Translations under genes and position numbers: made by a program
Part shown: in pieces, positions 2,579 through 7,294 of the stretch
Layout: each line of letters begins with the position of its first letter
How positions within the stretch are numbered: the first letter of the stretch is position 1
Origin: Heyndrickxia ginsengihumi
GTDB lineage: Bacteria > Bacillota > Bacilli > Bacillales > Bacillaceae_C
Direction of reading: 5' to 3'
Length of the DNA stretch: 55,154 bases
Assembly: GCF_011008565.1 (NCBI RefSeq)
Contig: NZ_JAAIWK010000025.1
Coordinates: 1 to 55,154 of the forward strand
Notes under the pieces: generated by a model
Databases searched by the model: none
Seen by the model: the letters and a program-made list of their open reading frames with translations, nothing else
What the model was told of the DNA's origin: nothing

Positions 2579-2629
2579 TTTATCCAACCTTTTTCTTTCT
2601 CATCGTTATTGTGGTTTCAGCAAAATCAG

Positions 2630-2663
2630 TTGTATTATACAATCAATTAGTTGTATAATGCAA
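2630..2663 (-). promoter_or_regulatory. Paired palindromic operators over the marR promoter
   Basis: TTGTATTATACAA (2630-2642) is a perfect 6-1-6 palindrome. TTGTATAATGCAA (2651-2663) is a near copy 21 bp away, two helical turns. Read on the minus strand, a TATAAT -10 lies inside the first palindrome and a TTGCAT -35 inside the second, with 18 bp between them. Occupation by a MarR dimer would block the promoter. Confidence 0.7.
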
Positions 2664-2766
2664 ACAGTTTTGTTCCATCATGTGATCGTTTTTGTGCAGG
2701 ATATTTTGTGTTTTCCTGCAATCGTGGCATAATAAAGAAGCAAAATAATAGAATAGAGGTAATAAG

Positions 2767-3081
2767 ATGAACGTAAAGATCAATCGCAATGCAGCTAAAA
2801 AATTAAACAGTATATTAAGCACTCCTGAAGCAGAAGGGAAGATGATCCGAGTTTATATTACACATATGCATGGGGATCATGCCCATTATGATATTGCTTT
2901 AGATACACCGAAAGAACATGATGAAATTGTCAAAACAGATAAGGACATTGATATCCTTGTTGATGCTCGTGAAGAGTTTTTAGATGGTGTTTGGATTCAA
3001 TATTTCTATGTCCCACAAGAGGAATTTGTCATTACAAATCCAGCTAAAGATCGGGAGCACCATCATCACCATCATCATTGA
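2767..3081 (+). CDS. HesB/IscA-fold protein with a C-terminal heptahistidine tail
   Basis: A 104-residue small cytoplasmic protein resembling the HesB/IscA-like iron-sulfur biosynthesis fold (start MNVKINRNAAKKLNSIL, then a beta-rich core with VDAREEFLDGVWIQYF). It contains no cysteine at all, so it cannot use the three-cysteine Fe-S site of true A-type carriers. Instead it has a histidine-rich loop THMHGDHAHYD (about residues 32-42) and ends in seven consecutive histidines, encoded by a mix of CAT and CAC codons. The ATG follows AGAGGTAATAAG. It is a single gene; the next transcript is the ABC exporter leader. Metal binding, perhaps nickel, zinc or iron buffering, is an inference; the function is not established. 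Confidence 0.75.
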   Translation: MNVKINRNAAKKLNSILSTPEAEGKMIRVYITHMHGDHAHYDIALDTPKEHDEIVKTDKDIDILVDAREEFLDGVWIQYFYVPQEEFVITNPAKDREHHHHHHH

Positions 3082-3108
3082 GTGGTCAGATGAAATTCAA
3101 ATTGCAAA

Positions 3109-3138
3109 TTGACGGAATATTTCCCGATGTGATAAGAT
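3109..3138 (+). promoter_or_regulatory. Candidate sigma-A promoter for the ABC exporter leader
   Basis: A TTGACG -35 (3109-3114) and a TAAGAT -10 (3133-3138) are separated by 18 bp. An imperfect inverted repeat, GAATATTTCCC (3115-3125) with GGGAATATTC (3139-3148), straddles the -10 and could be an operator or a terminator for the gene to the left. Confidence 0.45.
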
Positions 3139-3177
3139 GGGAATATTCTTAATATTATTGAAAGGTGGTTACGTGTC

Positions 3178-3243
3178 ATGCGAAGATTAGTGGTAGTTCA
3201 AAAAACGCAACAACCTCATACAACCGTAACCTGCCTAATTTGA
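3178..3243 (+). CDS. Putative leader peptide of the BmrCD-type exporter
   Basis: A 21-codon open frame starting at an ATG 9 nt after a strong AAAGGTGG site and reading MRRLVVVQKTQQPHTTVTCLI before TGA. The last codons (Val-Thr-Cys region, 3226-3234) are the left arm of an antiterminator, so translation of this peptide would directly control hairpin choice downstream. B. subtilis bmrCD is preceded by a translated leader, bmrB, that mediates ribosome-dependent attenuation in response to antibiotics; this frame occupies the same position. It is shorter than BmrB as I remember it, and I see no evident sequence match, so homology is not claimed. Confidence 0.6.
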   Translation: MRRLVVVQKTQQPHTTVTCLI

Positions 3244-3295
3244 CATTGCCTTTTAGTTTGAAATGATAGCGCAGGTTACAATCCTGCGCATTTTT
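3226..3295 (+). promoter_or_regulatory. Attenuator: antiterminator versus terminator hairpins
   Basis: GTAACCTGC (3226-3234, inside the leader peptide frame) is perfectly complementary to GCAGGTTAC (3271-3279). The same bases 3271-3275 also form the left arm of a terminator, GCGCAGG (3269-3275) with CCTGCGC (3283-3289), followed by T5 (3291-3295). The two structures cannot coexist. A ribosome that completes the leader frame would mask 3226-3234 and let the terminator form; one stalled earlier would free it and allow readthrough. Confidence 0.72.
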
Positions 3296-3301
3296 ATGAA
3301 G

Positions 3302-3340
3302 CATAGTGCACTCATCATAAAGAGCGCACTATGTTTTTTT
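3302..3340 (+). terminator. Second intrinsic terminator in the exporter leader
   Basis: CATAGTGC (3302-3309) pairs perfectly with GCACTATG (3326-3333) around a 16-nt loop, followed by seven T residues (3334-3340). It comes directly after the attenuator hairpin, so readthrough would have to pass two terminators before reaching the exporter genes. Confidence 0.75.
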
Positions 3341-3437
3341 GTGCTACCTAATTTTCCGGGAGACGAGCAACTCGGTGTAGAAATAAACAACTTTTTTTGA
3401 TAATAAAACAGCTTTTATAAATGAAAGGATGATGACA

Positions 3438-3488
3438 TTGCGTAAATTAATTGTCTGTATTTCCATATCAGATGACGAAACGGGCTAA
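3438..3488 (+). CDS. Second tiny ORF ahead of the exporter (possible leader peptide)
   Basis: A 16-codon frame starting at TTG, 9 nt after GAAAGG, and reading LRKLIVCISISDDETG before TAA. Its first residues (Met-Arg-Lys-Leu-Ile-Val) resemble the first residues of the leader peptide at 3178 (Met-Arg-Arg-Leu-Val-Val). It ends 33 nt before the first exporter gene, with no terminator between. An in-frame ATG at 3432 is possible but lies too close to the ribosome site. It may be a duplicated leader or a coupling ORF, or chance. Confidence 0.35.
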   Translation: MRKLIVCISISDDETG

Positions 3489-3521
3489 TAAATCGAAACA
3501 AAAGAAGAGGAGGAGTATCCT

Positions 3522-5279
3522 TTGTTTAGTGTGTTAGTGAAATTGCGCTGGTTTTTTAAACAATATTGGAAAAGGTATAGCATCGCAATTGTTACGCTGT
3601 CTCTATGTAATTTTTTTGAGGTTATTCCCCCGATGATGATTGGCAATACGATCGATAAACTTTATCTTGGTGAATTATCAGCAAAATTATTTAGCTTGTA
3701 TATCGCTATTTTTCTTACTGGTTCAATATTAAACTATCTTATTACGTATATTTGGCAGTACGCTTTATTTGGCGGTGCTTTCATTGTTGAGAAAACATTG
3801 CGTTCACGACTTATGAATCATTTGTTGAAAATGGGACCGACATTTTTTGAAAAAAATCGAACAGGAAATTTAATGGCAAGAGGAACGAATGATTTAAAAG
3901 CGGTGTCAATGACAGCGGGATTTGGCATTCTTACACTTGTAGATTCCACGATGTATATGCTTACTATTATTATGACGATGGGAGTATTCGTGTCATGGAA
4001 ATTAACATTTGCTTCTATATTGCCATTACCTATTCTTGCGATCGGCATTAAATATTTAGGTGGAAAAATTCACGAACGCTATACGGTCGCCCAAGATGCT
4101 TTCGGTCAATTAAACGATCGAGTTTTAGAGTCTGTTGAAGGCGTTCGTGTTATCCGTGCATACAATCAGGAATTGAAAGAAGAATCAGTTTTTAAAGCGA
4201 TGACAGATGACGTTTATCATAAAAATGTTACTGTTGCAAAAATCGATGCGCTCTTCAATCCATTAACTAAAATTGTAGCAGGTTTAAGTTATACGATCGG
4301 TTTATCATATGGTGCTTATTTGGTATTTCATCAAAAGATTACATTAGGAAATTTAGTATCATTTAATGTATTTTTAGGGATGTTAACGTGGCCAATGTTT
4401 GCGATCGGTGAACTGATTAATGTTATGCAGCGGGGAAATGCCTCTTTGGACCGTGTGCAGGAGACATTGAATGAGTGTGAAGATGTAGAAGATCCAGAGA
4501 AACCAAAAGAGTTGAAGAAGTTAGGTGATATTACATTTGAAAATAGTTCATTTCAGTATCCACGCTCAAAAACGATGAATCTCAAACATATCCATCTCCA
4601 TATTCACCGTGGAGATACAATTGGTGTTGTAGGAAAAACTGGGAGTGGAAAAACAACATTCATTAAACAACTGCTGCGGGAATATCCGCTTGGTGAAGGT
4701 ACTGTAATGGTAGCGAACACTAGAATAGATGAGTTATCTAAAGAGCAAATTCGCAGCTGGATTGGCTATGTCCCTCAATCGCATTTCTTATTTTCACGAA
4801 CAGTGAAAGAAAATATTTTATTTGGTGTTGATGATGCTGCAGAGGAAGAAGTTCAAAAAGTGATTAAACTTACGGCATTAGATAAAGATATTCGAATGTT
4901 TCCAAATGGACTTGACACTTTAGTCGGGGAAAAAGGTGTGTCACTTTCAGGTGGACAGAAACAACGGATTTCCATTGCTCGTGCATTAATGGTCGATCCA
5001 GAGCTGCTCATACTAGATGATGCCTTATCAGCTGTTGATGCCAAAACAGAGGCGCGGATCATTTGCAATATTCGTAAAGAAAGAGCAGATAAAACGACGA
5101 TTATCGTGACCCATCGTTTGTCTGCGATTGAACACGCTCAGTGGATTGTTGTTTTGGATGACGGCAACATTATCGAAGAAGGCACTCATGAACAGCTGCT
5201 TGCGCTCAATGGATGGTATAGACAGCAATTTGATCGCCAACAAGTTCATCTGCCGGGACAAATGGAGGTGCAAGCATAG
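3522..5279 (+). CDS. bmrC: Heterodimeric multidrug ABC exporter subunit, BmrC type
   Basis: A 585-residue half-transporter: six membrane segments in residues 1-310, then a nucleotide-binding domain with Walker A GKTGSGKTT (about 371-379), signature LSGGQ (about 474) and Walker B LLILDD (about 494-499). The residue after the Walker B aspartate is Asp instead of the catalytic Glu, as in BmrC/YheI of B. subtilis, whose own ATP site is degenerate. The length equals that of B. subtilis BmrC as I recall it. It starts at TTG after AGAGGAGGAG and shares one base with the next gene (TAGTG), so both subunits are made together. Expected role: ATP-driven export of drugs, with expression set by the upstream attenuator. 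Confidence 0.88.
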   Translation: MFSVLVKLRWFFKQYWKRYSIAIVTLSLCNFFEVIPPMMIGNTIDKLYLGELSAKLFSLYIAIFLTGSILNYLITYIWQYALFGGAFIVEKTLRSRLMNHLLKMGPTFFEKNRTGNLMARGTNDLKAVSMTAGFGILTLVDSTMYMLTIIMTMGVFVSWKLTFASILPLPILAIGIKYLGGKIHERYTVAQDAFGQLNDRVLESVEGVRVIRAYNQELKEESVFKAMTDDVYHKNVTVAKIDALFNPLTKIVAGLSYTIGLSYGAYLVFHQKITLGNLVSFNVFLGMLTWPMFAIGELINVMQRGNASLDRVQETLNECEDVEDPEKPKELKKLGDITFENSSFQYPRSKTMNLKHIHLHIHRGDTIGVVGKTGSGKTTFIKQLLREYPLGEGTVMVANTRIDELSKEQIRSWIGYVPQSHFLFSRTVKENILFGVDDAAEEEVQKVIKLTALDKDIRMFPNGLDTLVGEKGVSLSGGQKQRISIARALMVDPELLILDDALSAVDAKTEARIICNIRKERADKTTIIVTHRLSAIEHAQWIVVLDDGNIIEEGTHEQLLALNGWYRQQFDRQQVHLPGQMEVQA

Positions 5280-7294
5280 TGGTCGCAAAACGGTTATTTC
5301 AATACGCTTTGCATGTTAAAGGCATCATTTTAACAGCGGTCATTGCATTAATCCTTTCGGTCAGTGCGGATGTTTTAAGTCCGCTCGTTGCGAAAAATTT
5401 AATTGATCATCATATACTTGGCATTGAACACGGATGGGTTGAAACGAATCATTCATCGCAAGCTGTTCACTTTCAAGGAAAGTTATATAAAAGGATGACC
5501 TATGCAACAGCAGAAGAAAAAGAAGGAAAGAAAGCAAGCATATTACAAGTTGGTAAGTATTTTTATTTTGTGAACAGTGATGTACCGCAGGAGGGAGAAC
5601 GGACTGTTAAGAACCATGTACTTATTGTCTCTCTTCATGGAAAAACGACATCATATAAAGCGACACCATTATCGGTTACAGATATTTTTCATTTTTACCA
5701 GCCTGAAGTCCCATATATGTTAAAACGATTTATCGTATATCTATTATTATTTATTGTGTCAGGTGTAGCAGCATATGGTCAGTTTTATTATCTTCAAAAA
5801 GCTGCAAATCGCATCATTCAAAAAATGCGCAATGATTTGTTTAGCCAGCTGCAAAGATTACCAATCTCTTATTTTGATCATTTGCCCGCAGGAAAAGTTG
5901 TTGCCCGCATTACGAATGATACAGAAGCGATCCACGATCTTTATGTAGCAGTATTATCAAATTTTCTTACAGGCATCATTTATATGGCTGGGATTTATAC
6001 GGCGATGTTTCTATTGGATGCAAAATTGGCTCTGTTTTGTTTGGTGCTACTGCCGATATTATATGTCTGGATGAAAATTTACCGGATCTTTGCACAAAAA
6101 TACAACCATATCATTCGTTCAAAAAACAGTGAGCTAAATGCGATGCTGAATGAAGCGATACAAGGTATGAGTATTATCCAAGTCTTTCGGCGCCAAAAAC
6201 AAGTTTATCATGACTTTGAGCAGCTGAACGACACCCATTATAAATATCAAAATAAATTGTTAACTTTAAACTCTTTATCTTCTCATAATCTAGTAGGAAT
6301 ATTGAGAAATCTAATTTTTGTAGTGTTTATTTGGTATTTTGGCCACGATGCGATTGGCATCCAAACGACATTATCAATTGGATTATTATATGCTTACATT
6401 GATTATATAAATCGTTTATTTAATCCAATTAATAATATTGTGAACCAATTTGGCAATTTAGAGCAAGCACTCGTTGCGGGTGAACGTGTTTTTCATTTGC
6501 TTGATCAGGAAGGGATCACTGTGAGCAAGCAAACGATTCCCCGTTTTCAAGGAAATGTTACTTTTGACCATGTTTATTTTGGCTATAAGGACCATCAATA
6601 CGTACTGAAGGACATTCATTTTGAGGCAAAACAAGGGGAAACGATAGCACTTGTCGGTCATAGTGGTTCCGGAAAAAGTTCCATTATGAACGTATTGTTT
6701 CGATTTTATGATTGCCAAAAAGGGGAAATTCGTATTGATGGAGTCAATATTCAAGACATACCGAAACAAACATTGCGTGAGCATATGGGCATTGTACTTC
6801 AAGACCCATATTTATTTACAGGGACAATTTTTACGAATGTCAGTTTAAATGATCCGCGGATAACGCGTGAAAAAGTAGAGGACGTTCTGAAAGCAGTAGG
6901 GGCAGAGCAAATTTTGCAACATCTTGAAAAAGGGATAGATGAACCAGTTATTGAAAAAGGAAGTACGTTATCAGCAGGACAGAGACAGCTCATATCGTTT
7001 GCGCGAGCATTAGCATTCAATCCTGCTATTTTAATATTAGATGAAGCAACATCAAATATTGATACGGAAACGGAAGCACTCATTCAAGGTGCAATGGATG
7101 TATTGAAAAGAGGGCGAACGACATTTGTTATTGCTCATCGTCTTTCCACGATTAAAAATGCAGATCAAATCATCGTGTTAGATCGAGGAGAAATCGTTGA
7201 GCATGGCAGTCATGATTCATTAATGGCTCAAAAAGGAACATATTATCAAATGTACCAAATGCAGCATGGGCTTGCATTTAGTGATGTCAGTTAG
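5279..7294 (+). CDS. bmrD: Heterodimeric multidrug ABC exporter subunit, BmrD type
   Basis: A 671-residue partner half-transporter. After the first membrane helix (residues 10-35) there is a roughly 100-residue extracytoplasmic insertion (about 45-145), the hallmark of BmrD/YheH, then five more helices. The nucleotide-binding domain has Walker A GHSGSGKSS (about 458-466), a degenerate signature LSAGQ (about 562) and an intact Walker B with catalytic Glu, LILDEATSNID. Together with the Asp-substituted BmrC this leaves one competent ATP site per heterodimer, built from BmrD Walker motifs and the BmrC signature. The GTG start overlaps the bmrC stop by one base and follows GGAGGTG. No clear terminator was seen directly after it. 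Confidence 0.88.
   Translation: MVAKRLFQYALHVKGIILTAVIALILSVSADVLSPLVAKNLIDHHILGIEHGWVETNHSSQAVHFQGKLYKRMTYATAEEKEGKKASILQVGKYFYFVNSDVPQEGERTVKNHVLIVSLHGKTTSYKATPLSVTDIFHFYQPEVPYMLKRFIVYLLLFIVSGVAAYGQFYYLQKAANRIIQKMRNDLFSQLQRLPISYFDHLPAGKVVARITNDTEAIHDLYVAVLSNFLTGIIYMAGIYTAMFLLDAKLALFCLVLLPILYVWMKIYRIFAQKYNHIIRSKNSELNAMLNEAIQGMSIIQVFRRQKQVYHDFEQLNDTHYKYQNKLLTLNSLSSHNLVGILRNLIFVVFIWYFGHDAIGIQTTLSIGLLYAYIDYINRLFNPINNIVNQFGNLEQALVAGERVFHLLDQEGITVSKQTIPRFQGNVTFDHVYFGYKDHQYVLKDIHFEAKQGETIALVGHSGSGKSSIMNVLFRFYDCQKGEIRIDGVNIQDIPKQTLREHMGIVLQDPYLFTGTIFTNVSLNDPRITREKVEDVLKAVGAEQILQHLEKGIDEPVIEKGSTLSAGQRQLISFARALAFNPAILILDEATSNIDTETEALIQGAMDVLKRGRTTFVIAHRLSTIKNADQIIVLDRGEIVEHGSHDSLMAQKGTYYQMYQMQHGLAFSDVS

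Follow-up and report, generated by a model that had tools for sequence, protein, structure and literature searches.

A stretch of 55,154 nucleotides (nt) from Heyndrickxia ginsengihumi (contig NZ_JAAIWK010000025.1; "the window" below is the whole of this stretch) encodes two neighbouring halves of an ATP-binding cassette (ABC) exporter homologous to BmrC and BmrD, and the region just upstream of them very likely holds a conserved ribosome-mediated attenuator of the bmrB kind that controls the pair, a new member of a known principle. Its predicted parts (Table 1) are those of a bmrB-type attenuator: a short open reading frame (ORF1) with a ribosome site and a promoter-like site, upstream of pump genes; a terminator (T1) and an antiterminator that share bases, the latter drawn from leader codons; and an anti-antiterminator formed by arms 1 and 2. 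The core of arm 2 (3226-3234, GTAACCTGC) is a perfect complement, over 9 bp, of 3271-3279 (GCAGGTTAC). Behind the attenuator lies a second micro-ORF, ORF2, for which we tentatively propose a role of its own. The first-pass annotation, made from the letters of the window, had reported ORF1 and its ribosome site, the 9-bp complementarity, a terminator sharing antiterminator bases, a second strong terminator (T2), and BmrCD-type exporter genes downstream, all of which hold; it had missed arm 1, the promoter-like site, and ORF2.

Table 1 Features of the window from the promoter-like site to the end of the exporter genes.
Feature	Position	Strand	Description
Promoter-like site	3109-3138	+	TTGACG, 18 nt, TAAGAT; TG at 3130-3131
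ORF1 ribosome site	3161-3168	+	AAAGGTGG
Arm 1	3167-3173	+	GGTTACG; overlaps ORF1 ribosome site; pairs in the folds with arm 2 at 3225-3231 (anti-antiterminator)
ORF1	3178-3243	+	leader peptide MRRLVVVQKTQQPHTTVTCLI, 21 codons; ATG 3178-3180, TGA 3241-3243
Arm 2	3225-3234	+	last ORF1 codons; common to the arm 1:arm 2 and arm 2:arm 3 helices
Terminator T1	3269-3297	+	stem 3269-3289, including arm 3; tail ATTTTTAT
Arm 3	3271-3279	+	5' side of T1; 9 bp with 3226-3234 (antiterminator)
Terminator T2	3299-3340	+	stem 3299-3336, seven T at 3334-3340; outside the switch
ORF2	3438-3488	+	MRKLIVCISISDDETG; TTG start, TAA 3486-3488; ribosome site AAAGGA 3424-3429
bmrC homolog, ABC exporter half	3522-5279	+	TTG start; phmmer match to YheI chain 8t1p_C, E 8.8e-241, 2-576 of 585
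bmrD homolog, ABC exporter half	5279-7294	+	GTG start; phmmer match to YheH chain 8t1p_D, E 5.2e-242, 2-666 of 671

A predicted three-way switch ahead of bmrC

In the first stage of the proposed mechanism, transcription would begin upstream of ORF1 and ORF1 would be translated. Were the ribosome absent, arm 1 would pair with arm 2 and T1 would form; with a ribosome at the ORF1 stop, arm 2 would be covered and T1 would likewise form. If the ribosome were instead held near the ORF1 start, as a ribosome-targeting drug might do, arm 1 would be covered and arm 2 left free to pair with arm 3, so that T1 would be blocked. The drug response and the ribosome positions at ORF1 are what we infer here, and by the geometry the antiterminated state would need a ribosome near the ORF1 start, over arm 1 but not over arm 2. 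As arm 1 belongs to the ribosome-site region and arm 2 to the last codons, what the device should sense is the position of a stuck ribosome and not a particular peptide, which would explain how the ORF1 peptide can diverge while its last codons still pair.

Folding of the RNA from 3150 to 3345 gave -53.5 compared with a shuffle mean of -40.0 (z -3.61), with one of 200 shuffles equally good. When parts of the window sequence were covered, a check that had been proposed at the outset, the states switched as required: the antiterminator formed (-17.3) and T1 was absent in the early-stall fold, T1 formed (-13.8) when arm 2 was covered, and the arm 1:arm 2 helix appeared together with T1 in the no-ribosome fold. 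An Rfam search of 2600-3900 returned three matches with E <= 1, all far below their gathering scores.

Homologs of the first gene, bmrC, were found in all 34 genomes of the family (E <= 1e-150) and in 271 of 397 genomes sampled from the order (E <= 1e-190). The comparisons drew on 126 upstream regions, of which 30 came from the family (the window included), 41 from named records, and 55 from the wider order; certain species are present twice, the last 140 nt are distinct in 122, two loci were excluded (L071, with 30% identity, and L123, at a contig end), and loci L160-L190 were inspected separately, outside all counts. When ORF1 was chosen by its ribosome site and a downstream terminator, blind to pairing, such a frame preceded a terminator in 102 of the 126 loci, which left 79 representatives once similar ORFs were removed. 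A second, 110-locus set of ORF1 frames, for which the selection score included pairing and 18 starts were placed by hand, underlies the helix ranks of the window, the terminator shuffle, the covered-region folds, the count of shared arm 2 bases, and a first run of the all-against-all test; the main swap and all-against-all tests were redone with ORF1 picked without pairing.

In the swap test on the 79 representatives, arms 1 and 2 of the same locus scored 19.3 compared with 14.8 for swapped partners, and arms 2 and 3 scored 18.8 compared with 16.2; none of 10,000 permutations reached the observed mean in either case, and reversed or shuffled arms gave the background (13.8 for arms 1 and 2, 15.6-16.1 for arms 2 and 3). 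Both pairings thus coevolve, as a covariation check suggested with the first-pass annotation had asked. The all-against-all test compared ten segments (45 pairs) in the 52 representatives with exactly two terminators. Four pairs stood out, namely the ribosome-site region with the end of ORF1 (z 9.0), the end of ORF1 with the 5' side of T1 (z 10.5), the T1 stem (z 15.8), and the T2 stem (z 24.4), while the remaining 41 ranged from -3.3 to 3.1; the less strict ORF1 set gave the same picture. Both helices use 4 or more shared nt of arm 2 in 62 of 110 loci, and there are 50 distinct arm 1/arm 2 letter pairs, such as GGTTACG/CGTAACC in the window, AGGCTGA/TCAGCCT in eight loci, and AGGCTACG/CGTAGCCT in L018. 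By these sequence comparisons the arm letters of a three-way switch have changed in a compensatory manner. The letters of the ORF1 peptide are poorly conserved; as they diverge, ORF1 is unlikely to be a specific arrest peptide.

A promoter-like site is not remarkable in the window taken alone, where seven such sites stand against 6.1 in shuffles. Across 101 loci, the best site within 110 nt upstream of ORF1 agrees with the consensus at 9 or more of 12 bases in 98 (shuffles, 42.4), and an exact TTGACA occurs within it in 77 (shuffles, 2.8); from these counts the message most likely starts upstream of ORF1, and we would guess a start near 3145. A transcript start downstream of 3234, named in advance as a result that would have told against attenuation, is therefore not what the predicted promoter indicates. 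An inverted repeat (GAATATTTCC/GGGAATATTC, 3115-3148) spans the promoter-like site of the window and could be an operator.

Several observations weigh against an attenuator of this kind. The ranks of the window helices are modest, since swapped partners pair equally well with arm 1 in 28% of cases and for arms 2 and 3 in 4.5%, and the locus counts are not independent because the loci are related. ORF1 is missing in L004 and L005, two of the five examined species of the genus of the window, and neither has a terminator in the last 330 nt ahead of bmrC; the attenuator is therefore not universal in close relatives. T2, a strong hairpin followed by seven T residues, is untouched by the switch, and since the switch acts on T1 only, the classic model leaves the passage of polymerase through T2 unexplained. 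One would expect T2 by itself to halt transcription, and this, together with the poor conservation of ORF1 letters, might suggest that the ORF1 region holds just an ordinary tandem terminator with chance pairings; the swap and all-against-all tests and the recurrence of the layout in 102 of 126 loci make this very improbable. The leader-peptide attenuation proposed in the first-pass annotation is well supported by these tests and by the identity of the genes, with read-through of T2 as the part that its classic picture does not explain. Its second suggestion, that the leader is undescribed, holds for the peptide only, whose letters are new, because the layout is shared with many other Bacillales.

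T2 itself is a recurrent feature: at least two terminators lie between ORF1 and bmrC in 64 of the 102 loci with pairing-blind ORF1 and in 71 of 110 loci of the larger set, compared with 1 of 110 after shuffling (mononucleotide shuffle, one run). No alternative partner for T2 was found among the ten segments. By eye, its stems are alike around a GCATA...TATGC core in the window, L038, L090, L106, and L111, which is more than a plain terminator needs. A conserved T2 outside the switch is a puzzle for relatives of the published system as well, as the T2-like hairpin in L106 illustrates.

ORF2, a second micro-ORF before bmrC

ORF2 of the window ends 33 nt ahead of bmrC. A scan of the 126 loci gave 101 distinct ORF2 rows, of which 96 end in Gly, although the scan favours such rows. 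Among these 96, the stop codon is TAG in 83, TAA in 12, and TGA in 1, the length is 18 codons in 55, and the stop lies 22-51 nt ahead of bmrC. Any ORF ending in [DEKN]-[SGDNT]-G-stop was then counted in real and dinucleotide-shuffled regions treated alike (40 shuffle runs): the motif is present in 94 of the 122 distinct regions (shuffle mean 0.2, maximum 1), and with a TAG stop in 81 (shuffle 0.03). The use of TAG is particular to this frame, at 83/96 for ORF2 compared with 7/84 for ORF1 and 4/67 for bmrC of the same loci, and a pyrimidine (C or T) follows the stop in 88/96, 48/84, and 22/67, respectively.

All four Gly codons occur at the last position of ORF2 (37 GGG, 27 GGC, 20 GGA, and 12 GGT), the N-termini vary from hydrophobic to highly charged, and in 426 pairs the codon changes are mostly non-synonymous in the first codons and more synonymous from -4 to -1 (with zero at -1 by construction). 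No conserved RNA structure was seen between ORF2 and bmrC (mean z -0.23 for the first 60 of 122 regions), compared with -3.3 for ORF1 to T1 (first 60 of 110). This fold result and the variable Gly codons disfavour ORF2 as an RNA element. Nor does the region resemble an ermC-type translational attenuator, as no partner of the segment after T2 exceeds z 2.6 and the same fold z applies. Fusion of ORF2 to bmrC by read-through was rejected, since the distance from stop to start varies. Some loci show further frames: in L065 and L069 (Aquibacillus), an extra ESG-ending micro-ORF and a short frame resembling the BmrC N-terminus lie upstream of the ORF2-bmrC pair as a partial duplication; a short BmrC-like frame is present in L062; and the ELESG-ending ORF2 of L018 is set at a greater distance upstream (-138 to -84), with a strong hairpin between it and bmrC.

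ORF2 is widespread. A pattern of ribosome site, ATG, spacing, and [DE]-[S/G]-G-TAG was found in 117 of 397 genomes of the order, in 43 of 135 genera, against about 8 matches in 7 genomes for a reversed control (by eye). Of 30 loci with pattern matches, 27 are in frame; 25 of these precede a BmrC-type gene (assigned in L139 and L140 by bmrC positions from the order genome search) and 2 precede a gene of the major facilitator superfamily (MFS). The downstream gene is about 300 nt away from ORF2 in L135, and the loci L106, L160, and L161 of genus g52, which may be Bacillus in the strict sense, keep the frame with a different end, WLERKDHTLFG-TAG-C. Upstream of the two MFS genes (L164, Pfam MFS_1, E 1e-44; L165, similar by eye), there is an ORF1 with both helices (scores of 25 and 24 for arms 1 and 2, and of 19 and 23 for arms 2 and 3) followed by two tandem terminators, with a third terminator-like hairpin in L164. 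The cassette of ORF1, T1, T2, and ORF2 also stands before an MFS pump and is therefore portable. The MFS gene of L165 is split over two frames, possibly by a frameshift or an assembly error. In the class as a whole the pattern was found in 26 of 348 genomes; outside the order it is at chance, with 14 matches against about 12 in the reversed control (by eye). One match outside the order (G471) is followed, some 200 nt further on, by a bmrC homolog (L177), and 2 of 14 BmrC-like loci outside the order have ORF2 (L177 and L178).

Possible roles of ORF2

We put forward, with less than even confidence, that ORF2 is a widespread cis-acting leader whose termination step serves as a signal: a frame of about 18 codons ending in [DE]-[SG]-Gly-UAG-[C/U] that would be selected for slow release dependent on release factor 1 (RF1) and would belong to a portable module, placed after a drug-sensing attenuator and ahead of drug pumps of two unrelated classes, ABC and MFS. 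In this second stage, transcripts that pass the attenuator would carry ORF2, whose end (an acidic residue, a small residue, Gly, mostly UAG, and a pyrimidine) would slow RF1-dependent release of the peptide, and a ribosome lingering about 35 nt before bmrC would tune bmrC translation or protect the message. We infer slow release and its output from the Gly end, the choice of UAG, which is read by RF1 only, and the biased following base. A stop is weak when UAG precedes a pyrimidine. Both RF1 and RF2 have been observed to release Gly-ending peptides slowly in vitro (Pierson 2016, cited in PMC7246954).

Some features of ORF2 weigh against this proposal. The ORF2 of the window starts with TTG and ends in TAA, a stop used by a minority of loci. 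Ser at -2 is encoded by AGY in 51 of 54 cases and by TCN in 3, so that selection on nucleotides is possible at that position. ORF2 is absent from the ORF1-bearing loci L020-L023 and L025-L029.

The same observations may be read in other ways. Ribosomes that end at ORF2 might re-initiate at the bmrC ribosome site or keep it open, with the C-terminal motif only tuning recycling; the short distance from stop to bmrC in the 96 Gly-ending rows would suit such coupling, as would an inverted repeat in the window (3496-3505/3518-3527) with the bmrC ribosome site between its arms. The Gly-UAG bias, however, is not accounted for by coupling alone, and the 60 folded regions have no conserved structure that would need opening; we consider coupling rather unlikely. 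Alternatively, a paused ORF2 ribosome may block 5'-to-3' decay of the read-through transcript by RNase J and lengthen the half-life of the message. Stalled ribosomes protect mRNA at the erm leaders of Bacillus, and both the conservation of ORF2 without RNA structure and the persistence of its frame, with the end EGG-TAG, in L004, which is without the attenuator, are in line with protection, which we likewise consider rather unlikely. The conserved C-terminus and length could also be those of a micropeptide working in trans, for example on the pump. This appears improbable: the N-termini are as diverse as noted above, changes outside the last codons are predominantly non-synonymous, a released peptide has no need of a biased stop codon, and ORF2 also precedes an MFS pump.

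Were ORF2 functional, as the slow-release proposal holds, a conserved element would be missing from the attenuation model of bmrCD, and the release of a peptide at its stop codon would act as a point of control over drug export in many Bacillales. The Gly-UAG-pyrimidine signature makes ORF2 directly testable, and the comparative map gives the exact arms of the attenuator.

Neighbouring genes and related systems

The closest solved relatives of the two exporter halves are YheI and YheH, matched over nearly their full length (Table 1), as for a heterodimeric BmrC/BmrD ABC exporter. Upstream, at 2767-3081, the window encodes a HesB/IscA-like protein (TIGR00049, E 1.2e-8, below cutoff; no Pfam match) with seven natural histidines at its C-terminus; a His-rich tail is also present in L004 and L005. 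On the minus strand, 178-2587 holds an adjacent cluster of a MarR-type regulator, an isochorismatase-like hydrolase, and a DHA2-type MFS exporter beside bmrCD.

Leaders such as TnaC and SpeFL arrest the ribosome at their own stop codon. ORF2 shares with them conserved C-terminal residues and a stop on a short leader, and arrest of this type is the model proposed for it, ORF2 being known here from sequence and having no conserved downstream structure. No description of ORF2 was found in the open-licence literature searched. The closest two-leader case that we met is ermBL/ermBL2, where two leader peptides likewise lie upstream of one resistance gene; unlike ORF1 and ORF2, these leaders overlap and act by translational attenuation, and ermBL2 runs from GTG to TAA and ends in SD, not in Gly-UAG, according to the excerpted account (PMC8274638).

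Among attenuated exporters, Streptococcus pneumoniae patAB resembles the system described here in having a predicted terminator, antiterminator, and anti-antiterminator ahead of a two-gene ABC exporter, whereas the term "leader peptide" occurs 0 times in the available text of that report (PMC4319486). Listeria rli59, upstream of lmo1652, is alike by description in its small ORF and terminator ahead of an ABC transporter; its termination is hampered by lincomycin, erythromycin, and chloramphenicol, by a mechanism that is only postulated, and unlike here, no second ORF is described in the portions of that account at hand (PMC8079631).

The nearest counterpart is bmrB of Bacillus subtilis, and bmrCD was reported as the first multidrug ABC exporter with ribosome-mediated attenuation (PMC4191407). 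As in the window, a translated leader lies directly upstream of the orthologous pump genes, with a predicted terminator, antiterminator, and anti-antiterminator. By its published description, bmrB encodes 53 aa and contains the terminator within its coding sequence, whereas the 21-codon ORF1 stops 25 nt short of T1; the sections of that account drawn on here mention neither a second terminator nor a second ORF ahead of bmrC (PMC4191407). Translation of bmrB and the interaction of lincomycin with the ribosome are both required for induction of bmrCD, and blocking bmrB translation lowers expression and abolishes induction by lincomycin (PMC4191407), a result that agrees with the no-ribosome state proposed here, in which arm 1 would pair with arm 2 and T1 would form.

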